Below, one piece after another: positions 61,473 to 64,000 of a stretch of 64,000 bases of DNA. Position numbers and translations under genes: made by a program. The notes beneath the pieces are model-generated. The model did not search any database. It was not told where the DNA came from and worked only from the letters and a program-made list of their open reading frames with translations. Position 1 is the stretch's first letter. Each line of letters starts with the position of its first letter. The stretch comes from Shinella zoogloeoides (lineage in GTDB: Bacteria > Pseudomonadota > Alphaproteobacteria > Rhizobiales > Rhizobiaceae). The stretch spans positions 186,001-250,000 of the forward strand of contig NZ_QNUJ01000001.1 of assembly GCF_003574625.1 (NCBI RefSeq). Direction: 5' to 3'.

Positions 61473-62102
61473 TTAGGTACTGCCCAGTCCTGCCGCGCCC
61501 GGTGCCGCCTGGGGCCGCCTGTCGGCGGCCAGAAGCGAGAACATCACGTGGTCGCGCCACTCCCCGTTTATCTTCAGATACTCCCGAAGGTAGCCTTCCC
61601 GCTGAAAGCCGGCCTTTTCAAGGAGACGTATGCTTCTTGTATTGTCTGGAATACAGGCTGCCTCGATACGGTGCAACTGAAGGCTCGAAAAGATATAGGG
61701 TATGGCGAGGTTGAGTGCACCGAACATGTGGCCCTGGCCGGCATGGCGCTCGCCCATCCAGTAGCCGATCATGCAGCATTGCGCAGCTCCGCGCCGGATA
61801 TAGCCGACGGTGAGGCCGCCGAGCAGCGTCTTCTCCTCGCGCGTGAAGACGAAGAGGGGGACGGCCTGTCCCGACGAAAATTCCTGTTCATTACGAAGGA
61901 CGCGGGCGCGGAAGGCGCCTTCCGTCAGGTCGTCGCTCCGCCATGTCGGCTCCCAGGGTTCGAGGAAGCGCCGACTCTGGGAGCGCAACGCATACCATTG
62001 CCTGTAATCCTGGAAACGGGGGAGGCGAAGCAGGTGCCGTTCGCCGGCAAGTTCCACGGTGTCGGGCTGGCGCGACAGAAACCGAAAAACCGACCGTGCC
62101 AT
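61473..62102 (-). CDS. GNAT-family N-acetyltransferase (RimJ-like)
   Basis: 209-aa acetyltransferase of the RimJ/RimL type: FLEPWEPTWRSDD, LGGLTVGYIRRG, the acetyl-CoA loop region YWMGERHAGQGHMFGA, and the C-terminal HRIEAACIPDNTRSIRLLEKAGFQREGYLREYLKI (split) typical for N-terminal alanine acetylation of ribosomal proteins; the actual substrate is not certain. GGAGGA precedes the ATG. It lies 16 bp upstream of the EAL gene on the same strand, so likely co-transcribed. Confidence 0.92.
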   Translation of the reverse strand: MARSVFRFLSRQPDTVELAGERHLLRLPRFQDYRQWYALRSQSRRFLEPWEPTWRSDDLTEGAFRARVLRNEQEFSSGQAVPLFVFTREEKTLLGGLTVGYIRRGAAQCCMIGYWMGERHAGQGHMFGALNLAIPYIFSSLQLHRIEAACIPDNTRSIRLLEKAGFQREGYLREYLKINGEWRDHVMFSLLAADRRPQAAPGAAGLGST

Positions 62103-62360
62103 TCAGTCCTCCGCGCGCCGTCCTCGTGGCGGCCCCTTTCTCACAAAGACTATGCCGAGAGCCTCGCCGGCGTCAAATGAAACGGGGCAGTCCTATGGCG
62201 CCGGCGACACCCCTTTTTCGTTCGCGTCGCCGGGCCGATTCGGGCCTGCTTCGGTGCTATGCAAAAGCCGCATGTCAGCGGTGTGAGCATATGCATTTTC
62301 TTTAGGCAGGAGGTCGCTTATCTATTGATCAACGCAAGGGAAACACAAAGGAATTGAACG

Positions 62361-62510
62361 ATGAACATCTTCGCAAAGCTCAAGAAGAATGCCGCTGACC
62401 GCCGCGCCGTCCGTGAACTCGGCGCCCTCGACGACCGCGCCCTGCAGGACCTCGGCATCTCCCGCTCGAACATCCAGGCTGCCGTCAAGGGCATGGTCGT
62501 TTTCGGCTGA
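62361..62510 (+). CDS. DUF1127 small protein
   Basis: 49-aa Arg-rich protein: MNIFAKLKKNAADRRAVREL, then GALDDRALQDLGISRSNI, the DUF1127 core, ending GMVVFG. DUF1127 proteins are small, abundant and stress-inducible in alphaproteobacteria; some bind RNA (CcaF1 of Rhodobacter). GGA lies 8 nt before the ATG. The structured RNA and terminator directly downstream suggest it shares a transcript with a regulatory RNA. Confidence 0.9.
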   Translation: MNIFAKLKKNAADRRAVRELGALDDRALQDLGISRSNIQAAVKGMVVFG

Positions 62511-62660
62511 TACGGCCTGGGGCCAACGCCCCGCGCCATGAGGGATGACATCGGCGCGCCAGATCCGGCAGCGCCAGTCCGGTCATCCCGCCCCATTCAT
62601 CGGGACCTCTCTCCTCCCAGGGTCCCGATCAGGCAACCCGCCGCAAGGCGGGTTTTATTT
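62511..62660 (+). ncRNA. Candidate cuckoo/CcsR-type sRNA in the 3' region of the DUF1127 gene
   Basis: Three stem-loops follow the DUF1127 stop: GGGATGAC (62542-62549) with GTCATCCC (62582-62589); ATCGGGACC (62599-62607) with GGTCCCGAT (62621-62629) enclosing a CU-rich loop TCTCTCCTCCCAG (62608-62620); and the terminator hairpin 62636-62653. A CU-rich anti-Shine-Dalgarno loop followed by a terminator, downstream of DUF1127, is the known arrangement of alphaproteobacterial cuckoo RNAs. The 5' end is unknown. Confidence 0.6.
62636..62660 (+). terminator. Rho-independent terminator of DUF1127/sRNA transcript
   Basis: ACCCGCC (62636-62642), loop GCAA, GGCGGGT (62647-62653), then TTTATTTT: a strong intrinsic terminator. 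Confidence 0.9.
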
Positions 62661-62703
62661 TGCCCGCTTGCGGGCTCCCAAGGATATCGGAAAAGGCGCG
62701 GCT

Positions 62704-63996
62704 TCAGCTCGCCGCGCGGTCGATGGTCCCGCGCGAGAGCGAGCGCGTGATGTCGCCGGCCGGGACCAGGTGTTCCAGCGGGCCGATGGCCGAGATCGTC
62801 GGCACCGTGTCGAAGAACAGGCGTCCGGCAAGGTCCGTCAGGCGCTCAATGGTGATGCCGGCGAGGCGCTCCATCAGCTCCTCGTTCGGGATCGGGCGGC
62901 CGTAGAGCATCATCTGGCGGGCGATCTGGCCGGCGCGGGCGGCCGGGCTTTCCTGGCCCATCAGGAGCTGGGCGCGGATCTGCGCGCGGGCGCGCTCGAT
63001 TTCCTGCTGGTCGATCGTCTCGGACGACTTCTTCAATTCGTCGAAGATGACGGGCATCAGCTCGGGCAGGTTCTCGCCGCCGGTCGCGGCATGGATGCCG
63101 AAGATGCCGGTATCGGAAAAGCCCCAGTGGAAGGCGTAGATCGAGTAGCAGAGGCCGCGATGCTCGCGCACTTCCTGGAAGAGGCGCGAGGACATGCCGC
63201 CGCCGAGGATGTTGGCGAGAATCTGCGAACAGTAGAAGTCGCGGGCGTGGTAGGCCTTGCCCTCGAAGCCGAGCAGCACCTGCGCGTCCATGAGGTCGCG
63301 CGTCTCGCGGATATCGCCACCGGTATAGCGGGCCGGTTCGAAGACCGGGGAGATTTTCGGCGCGGTCGGCAGCGAGGAGAAACGGTCCTCGACCTGGCGC
63401 ACGAATTCGTCATGGTTCACCGCGCCGGCCGCCACCACGAACATGCGGTCCGTCGTGTAGTTGCGGTCGAGATAGGAGCGGATCTCGCCGGGCGAGAAGG
63501 ACAGTACCGTGTCCGGCGTGCCGAGGATGGCGCGGCCGATGATCTGGTCGCGATAGGCGACCTCGGAGAACTTGTCGAAGACCACGTCGTCCGGCGTGTC
63601 GTTCGCCGCGCCGATTTCCTGGAGGATGACGTGCTTCTCGCGGCGCAACTCTTCCTCGTCGAAGACGGATTCCGTCAGGATGTCGGCGAGGATGTCGACC
63701 GCGAGCGGGACATGGTCCTTGAGCACGCGGGCATAGTAGGAGGTGGTTTCCGTCGAGGTGGCGGCGTTGACCTCGCCGCCGACATTCTCGATTTCCTCGG
63801 CGATCTGGCGGGCGGAGCGGCGCTCCGTGCCTTTGAAGGCCATGTGTTCCAGAAGGTGGGCGATGCCGTGCTCGTCCGTGGTTTCGTTGCGTGACCCCGA
63901 CTTGATCCACACGCCGAGAGCGACGCTCTCCAGATGCGGCATGTTTTCGGTCACCACGGTCAACCCGGACGCAAGCCGGGTGCACTCAACTTTCAT
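62704..63996 (-). CDS. M16 family zinc peptidase (processing-peptidase-like)
   Basis: 430-aa M16B protein related to mitochondrial processing peptidase beta. Inverted zinc motif HLLEH (His47, Glu50, His51) with the third ligand Glu in ILQEIG 76 residues later, GGEVNAATSTETTSYYARV, and the glycine-rich loop GGGMSSRLFQEVRE. Probably active. Start ATG 63996 fits the family opening (VECTRLASGLTVVTE); a second ATG precedes it at 63999 and the ribosome-binding site is beyond the window edge. It is upstream of the RimJ gene on the same strand, with the DUF1127 gene in between on the other strand. Confidence 0.94.
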   Translation of the reverse strand: MKVECTRLASGLTVVTENMPHLESVALGVWIKSGSRNETTDEHGIAHLLEHMAFKGTERRSARQIAEEIENVGGEVNAATSTETTSYYARVLKDHVPLAVDILADILTESVFDEEELRREKHVILQEIGAANDTPDDVVFDKFSEVAYRDQIIGRAILGTPDTVLSFSPGEIRSYLDRNYTTDRMFVVAAGAVNHDEFVRQVEDRFSSLPTAPKISPVFEPARYTGGDIRETRDLMDAQVLLGFEGKAYHARDFYCSQILANILGGGMSSRLFQEVREHRGLCYSIYAFHWGFSDTGIFGIHAATGGENLPELMPVIFDELKKSSETIDQQEIERARAQIRAQLLMGQESPAARAGQIARQMMLYGRPIPNEELMERLAGITIERLTDLAGRLFFDTVPTISAIGPLEHLVPAGDITRSLSRGTIDRAAS

Positions 63997-64000
63997 CATA

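Follow-up and report, generated by a model that had tools for sequence, protein, structure and literature searches.

The window, by which we mean the whole 64-kb stretch of Shinella zoogloeoides DNA analyzed here, carries on its plus strand a gene for a DUF1127 small protein (62361..62510), an ORF of 49 amino acids with a match to PF06568 (E 8.8e-12). It is flanked by two minus-strand genes, one for a GNAT acetyltransferase (61473-62102) and one for an M16 peptidase (62704-63999). The DUF1127 stop codon occupies 62508-62510 and a folded RNA region begins at 62514; the ORF, the Pfam match and the start of the fold confirmed an earlier note on this DNA, which had placed an RNA element right behind the 49-aa gene. 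An RNA element immediately 3' of a short DUF1127 gene, as in the CIN1 locus, was found at 62361-62661. Small DUF1127 proteins have been reported to bind the kinase PhoR (PMC12501420), so that the encoded protein need not act on the adjoining RNA.

Folding of the 170 nt 3' of DUF1127 gave a minimum free energy (MFE) of -90.2 kcal/mol, compared with -67.2 kcal/mol (sd 4.3) in 200 shuffled sequences (z -5.39), none of which (0/200) matched the native fold energy. The MFE structure contains, all on the plus strand, SL0, a plain stem-loop just past the stop codon (62514..62537) that is mostly retained across six aligned sequences; SL1, a long stem-loop without an anti-Shine-Dalgarno (anti-SD) motif (62542..62589); and SL2, a hairpin with a cuckoo-type anti-SD loop exposing UCUCUCCUCCCAG (62599..62629), which was also recovered by a hairpin scan and by alignment. 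These are followed by a predicted intrinsic terminator, a hairpin plus U-rich tail (62635..62661, plus strand), with the hairpin proper at 62635-62654, identical in the six aligned sequences, and TTATTTT thereafter. The z score and the predicted elements agree with the structured RNA, exposed anti-SD loop and terminator described in the earlier note. Of the three stem-loops it listed, the CU-loop hairpin and the terminator stand, but the order and count do not: two plain stem-loops precede the CU hairpin, and with the terminator there are four.

The stem of SL2 has 9 bp, with TCTCTCCTCCCAG at 62608-62620; two further MFE pairs narrow the loop to CTCCTCCC, and the pyrimidine tract has a mean unpaired probability of 0.72 within the 170-nt tail. 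Read as UCUCCUCCC, the loop is an 8/9 match to the cuckoo motif CCUCCUCCC. This one-base difference had previously been called an insertion, but UCUCCUCCC can also be described as a substitution. CTCCTCCC occurs five times on the two strands of the 64-kb window, and SL2 is the only place where a stem of at least 9 bp encloses it as a loop. CCTCC-loop hairpins with stems of at least 6 bp are common in the window (65 of 800 160-nt tiles, 5 of 40 ORF 3' flanks), whereas those with at least 9 bp are rare (8/800 tiles, 0/40 flanks). A loop near-identical to that of SL2 is present in one true alpha-r14 copy of the same genome (tandem copy 2, tract CCTCTCCTCCC), and the first loop of a locus from another genus of the Rhizobiaceae (L088) contains TCTCTCCTCCCA, as does SL2.

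Motifs upstream of the DUF1127 gene

An LsrB/VtlR-type motif, TGCA-N6-GCAT (TGCAAAAGCCGCAT), lies on the plus strand at 62260..62273, 101 nt before the start codon. This is the form of the LsrB motif given for nfeR1 of S. meliloti in PMC10746234, where LsrB is reported to activate nfeR1, an alpha-r14 RNA; activation of DUF1127 genes by VtlR has likewise been reported (PMC12595884; atu1667, PMC7486931). The pattern occurs three times in 128 kb (both strands of the window), the copy at 62260-62273 included, and a search of the 160 nt ahead of the gene found it in 20 of 22 Shinella loci, at a distance of 88-114 nt, compared with 3 of 25 loci from the wider family.

Of 49 rows (two of them duplicates), 46 have another box, GCAT-N3-T-N4-TG, 78-105 nt ahead of the gene, compared with five occurrences in the 128 kb of window strands; it is missing in L015, L082 and the window. 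This second box is of the VtlR type. VtlR-activated DUF1127 genes are described from Brucella and Agrobacterium, among them atu1667, which is called an orthologue of two such Brucella genes (PMC7486931, PMC12595884); a short DUF1127 gene with such a box upstream is the shared feature, and the window copy of the box has a mismatch. The window has no copy of the Agrobacterium form, GCAT-N3-TG-N3-T (one mismatch by eye), which stands before 3 of 4 abcR copies, 2 of 3 alpha-r14 copies and 2 of 6 DUF1127 genes (L089 and L090) of the same genome. A LysR gene (PF00126, PF03466) adjoins the abcR tandem of this genome, and vtlR has been described next to abcR in Agrobacterium (PMC7486931). Because of the TGCA-N6-GCAT motif, the LysR gene by abcR and the boxes at abcR, alpha-r14 and DUF1127 genes, control of the window DUF1127 gene by the LysR regulator LsrB/VtlR is likely, as judged from sequence. 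The earlier note had likened the locus to CcsR; the upstream motif suggests LsrB/VtlR rather than the RpoHI/RpoHII promoter described for ccaF1-CcsR (PMC10253847).

A possible -10 element, TATCTA (62319..62324, plus strand), was picked out by eye, and a CTATCTA-like string recurs in several relatives; a sigma-70 scan listed no plus-strand site at 62319..62324. Across L066-L087, from several genera of the family, a GCATGCC-T box lies ~80-92 nt upstream of DUF1127, a possible mark of an LsrB/VtlR regulon.

Relation to alpha-r14, CcsR and AbcR RNAs

The covariance-model check proposed in the earlier note did not bear out membership in alpha-r14: RF02344 scored 20.2 bits (E 0.1) on 62300-62720 (421 nt), compared with a gathering cut-off of 58.8 bits, and had no match at cut-off anywhere in the 64-kb window. 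The alpha-r15/AbcR model (RF02345) had no match at cut-off in the window and none up to E 10 in 62300-62720. As candidate identities, alpha-r14, Betaproteobacteria toxic sRNA, anti-hemB RNA and CrfA each scored far under their own cut-offs; the first three share a CU loop and a terminator with the window element, and the CrfA match is on the opposite strand.

Alpha-r14 RNAs have been described with three anti-SD hairpins (PMC10746234), and CCUCCUCCC hairpins, in sets of three and four, are described for SmelA075 and SmelA099, for which one family with varying hairpin number was suggested (PMC3927594). In place of several adjacent CCUCCUCCC hairpins, the window has one anti-SD hairpin, with the 8/9 loop UCUCCUCCC. 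Cuckoo RNAs, a family of stress RNAs, are said, in a 2015 paper, to have 2 to 4 hairpins each. By two defining features, hairpin number and Rfam score, the element is not a member of cuckoo/alpha-r14. The cuckoo/CcsR-like identity proposed earlier is therefore upheld only in part: position, anti-SD loop, terminator, likeness of the loop to alpha-r14 and stem compensation speak for it, and the single hairpin and the 20.2 bits against it. By its modeled anatomy the element could work as a cuckoo RNA, and we take the locus to hold a genuine single module of cuckoo-like form, conserved in part, that follows a DUF1127 gene with an LsrB-type motif.

With alpha-r14/cuckoo RNAs (RF02344; NfeR1 of S. 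meliloti) the locus shares the anti-SD CU loop, a variable stem, a terminator, a DUF1127 gene nearby and an LsrB-type motif upstream (PMC10746234), and differs in its one anti-SD hairpin as against three. With ccaF1-CcsR1-4 of Rhodobacter sphaeroides, described as the CIN1 locus with an RpoHI/RpoHII promoter (PMC10253847) and with CcsR originating from the 3'UTR (PMC8625941), it has in common DUF1127, an RNA in the 3' untranslated part and a terminator in last place. The Rhodobacter locus holds four modules behind its RpoHI/RpoHII promoter, whereas the window has one module and the LsrB/VtlR motif, and the RNA behind DUF1127 is CcsR-like by one loop only. AbcR1 and AbcR2 (alpha-r15, RF02345) likewise have a CU loop, and three of the four own copies have the GCAT-N3-TG-N3-T box upstream, but these are stand-alone sRNA genes and the window is without an RF02345 match. 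The four copies lie elsewhere in the genome and have CU loops of, for example, the TTTTCTCCTCCCA type.

The same genome has six DUF1127 genes and three alpha-r14 RNAs above the cut-off (85-124 bits; 150 of 420 candidates scored), the window locus not being among the matches listed. All three alpha-r14 copies are near DUF1127 genes. One starts ~220 nt past the stop codon of the L090 DUF1127 gene, with four hairpins bearing CCTCCTCCC-type tracts in a row; a terminator-like hairpin and a box of its own lie in front of it, whereas no sigma-70-like site is listed between gene and RNA in the window. The other two form a tandem ahead of two DUF1127 genes (L003:1501-2700), with three CCTCCTCCC-type tracts each. 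The window DUF1127 protein belongs to a different DUF1127 group from L089 and L090. By scan, a CCTCC-loop hairpin occurs no more than 160 nt past the stop of 2 of the 6 DUF1127 genes (the window gene and L092) and no more than 350 nt past the stop of 3 of the 6, L090 being added. Across Shinella, a DUF1127 gene was found no more than 1.5 kb from alpha-r14 in 26 of 30 loci examined (out of 70 matches, some of which are overlapping tandem copies).

Most of the other Shinella alpha-r14 loci examined also have two DUF1127 genes on the same side. Directly 3' of its own DUF1127 gene, L092 has a hairpin with the loop TTCCCTCCC (L092:1711-1750, G000:C1 near 104540). A further cuckoo-like element (L008:1465-1600, G000:C22 about 68856-68946) has two CTCCTCCTCC tracts and a terminator-like hairpin and scores 17.5 bits with alpha-r14; no DUF1127 match is listed on its contig. 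In the literature library searched, no paper was found on Shinella DUF1127 or on a Shinella small RNA with an anti-Shine-Dalgarno.

A possible trans-acting module and its putative targets

The reading that we tentatively favor, at just short of an even chance, is that of an LsrB-controlled DUF1127 mRNA with one cuckoo-type 3' module that acts in trans, perhaps released as a short sRNA. Established at the locus are the gene, the predicted fold, the loop, the predicted terminator, the upstream motif and partial conservation. The LysR regulator LsrB/VtlR would bind upstream and drive a transcript of ~330 nt that ends at the terminator near 62661; with TATCTA as its -10 element, the transcript would begin ~30 nt ahead of the DUF1127 gene. 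The SL2 loop could then bind strong Shine-Dalgarno sites, GGGAGGAGA for example, most likely in trans, whether as part of the mRNA tail or after release as a short SL2-terminator fragment, by analogy with CcsR from the ccaF1 mRNA. Translation of transport and metabolic genes may be lowered in this way, alongside alpha-r14 and AbcR with their similar loops.

The pattern GGGAGGAGA-N2-10-ATG was found at 22 places, compared with 1 for the reversed pattern, an excess that is no proof of targets because the reversed control ignores SD biology. Any strong SD should show such an excess, and the sites would suit alpha-r14 and AbcR equally, both of which have been reported to act on transport mRNAs (PMC7143759, PMC10746234). 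Among the 20 of 22 places that were read, nine precede ORFs of at least 250 aa, which by Pfam encode two periplasmic binding proteins, an NMT1-like protein and a permease (these four being of transport type), as well as a class-III aminotransferase, an AraC-type regulator, a DUF72 protein, an acyl-CoA dehydrogenase and a GAF/Fis-type regulator. The 22 include two antisense matches, one to the window hairpin and one to an abcR RNA.

Conservation, turnover and competing readings

SL0-SL2 may instead be nothing but stabilizing hairpins which, with the terminator, close a short mRNA, the CU loop having no partner or function; we regard this as unlikely, though it is the likeliest of the competing readings, and comparison with relatives bears on it from both sides. 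A DNA match to the locus was found in 20 of 21 genus genomes, its own included. The Shinella set comprised 22 loci, with L030, L031 and L032 as second copies beside those of 19 genomes; it excluded L011, which is near-identical and of the same species, the paralogue rows L003 and L005, and the duplicate or gene-less rows L002 and L033-L038.

The whole tail could be aligned in L001, L012, L013, L014 and L015, with the near-identical L011 as a sixth row. Three pairs of the SL2 stem show double changes in these six sequences (five distinct loci plus L011), and L012 and L015 differ by four SL2 double changes, one bulged base set aside. The pyrimidine tracts of the five loci read CCTCTCTCCTCCC, TCCTCCTCCC, TTTTCCTCCC, TTCTCCCCCC and TTCCTCCCC, and the loop remains pyrimidine-rich in all of them. 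The tract of L014 is TTCTCCCCCC, and the CCUCC anti-SD core is thus lost there, so that the cuckoo pattern of a constant loop on compensating stems is seen in four of the five. The compensatory changes in relatives on which the earlier note had made its proposal depend are present in SL2. SL0, SL1 and the terminator hardly vary and therefore give little information; SL1, nearly invariant in the six sequences, speaks neither for nor against covariation. Compensation in the SL2 stem beneath a loop that is still a pyrimidine tract, in all five loci with SL2, argues against hairpins that only stabilize, as do the rarity of CCTCC loops on stems of at least 9 bp and the near-identical loop in a true alpha-r14 copy and in L088. 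The loss of CCUCC in L014 favors them.

The scan found an anti-SD hairpin in 10 of 22 Shinella loci, compared with 1.34 expected from shuffles, and none in the other 12, an absence that again fits hairpins without a pairing role; it scored L028 positive on an unconvincing loop and passed over L030, in which TCCTCCC can be read in a wide loop. Other CCTCC-loop hairpins occur in the tails of L019, L022/L024 and L026/L027, and none in the remaining Shinella tails. When tails were merged by similarity with terminators cut, 4 of 12 clusters were positive (P 0.005, 0.013 or 0.053 under three background rates); looser merging, also with terminators cut, gave 2 of 9 clusters and merging with terminators 2 of 8, which was not significant (P 0.08 to 0.31). 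Clustering with the terminators left in had joined unlike rows and was redone with terminators removed. With related rows merged, the genus-wide enrichment is suggestive, and its weakness after clustering is a further point for merely stabilizing hairpins. Sequence comparison indicates that the DUF1127 3' tail turns over fast within Shinella.

Window-type DUF1127 was found in 33 of 297 family genomes (E 1e-9). The wider set consisted of L064-L088 plus L045 and L047, which are repeated by L064/L065, leaving 25 distinct rows. Four of these were positive in the hairpin scan (L073, L078, L086, L088), no excess over the 5/40 of ordinary 3' flanks, which also favors a stabilizing role; hairpins of at least 9 bp were limited to L073 (terminator-like) and L088. 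The latter combines DUF1127 with three CTCCTCC loops and an alpha-r14 score of 68.4 bits, and is the sole exception among the 25 wider loci, the other 24 having no cuckoo tail with several loops.

It is quite improbable that the window holds a shrunken cuckoo/alpha-r14 locus, in which SL2 would be what remains and SL0 and SL1 would once have been anti-SD hairpins, their loops since lost. The order of DUF1127, hairpins and terminator is as in L088, the loops are identical or near-identical, and the GCAT-N3-TG-N3-T box stands before the own DUF1127 genes L089 and L090, both by alpha-r14; however, SL1 shows no visible decay, being nearly invariant in six sequences, and the window protein is outside the DUF1127 group of L089/L090. 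Action in cis, in which the loop would pair with the ribosome site of the DUF1127 mRNA that carries it, came out weak in duplex-energy predictions and is very improbable: the duplex predicted with the gene's upstream stretch (-11.2 kcal/mol) uses AGGCAGGAGGT, which begins 57 nt ahead of the start codon and lies outside the putative transcript, and the leader alone (-30 to +20) gives -8.1, whereas a generic SD reaches -11.5 and a matched SD -23.2.

If the favored LsrB-controlled mRNA with a trans-acting module is real, it would join LsrB/VtlR control, small DUF1127 proteins and anti-SD cuckoo RNAs, which have mostly been studied apart; the links from LsrB to nfeR1 (PMC10746234) and from VtlR to DUF1127 genes (PMC12595884, PMC7486931) are already published. 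A locus with protein and RNA on one mRNA would allow one to ask whether the two serve a shared pathway and by what steps anti-SD modules come and go. In a broader and distinctly doubtful reading, cuckoo-type anti-SD modules are repeatedly gained and lost within the 3' tails of DUF1127 genes under LsrB control; the Shinella locus would be a one-module stage that unites redox control, DUF1127 protein and anti-SD RNA on one mRNA and would show how alpha-r14 came to lie beside DUF1127.

The M16 gene is convergent on the RNA, and read-through from it would yield an antisense copy with GGGAGGAGAGA (62590-62703, minus strand). The DUF1127 cassette (62361-62661; relatives in L011-L027) is inverted between its neighbors across Shinella, with GNAT and DUF1127 on opposite strands in 10 of the 17 Shinella loci that have both (L011 included) and on the same strand in 7.
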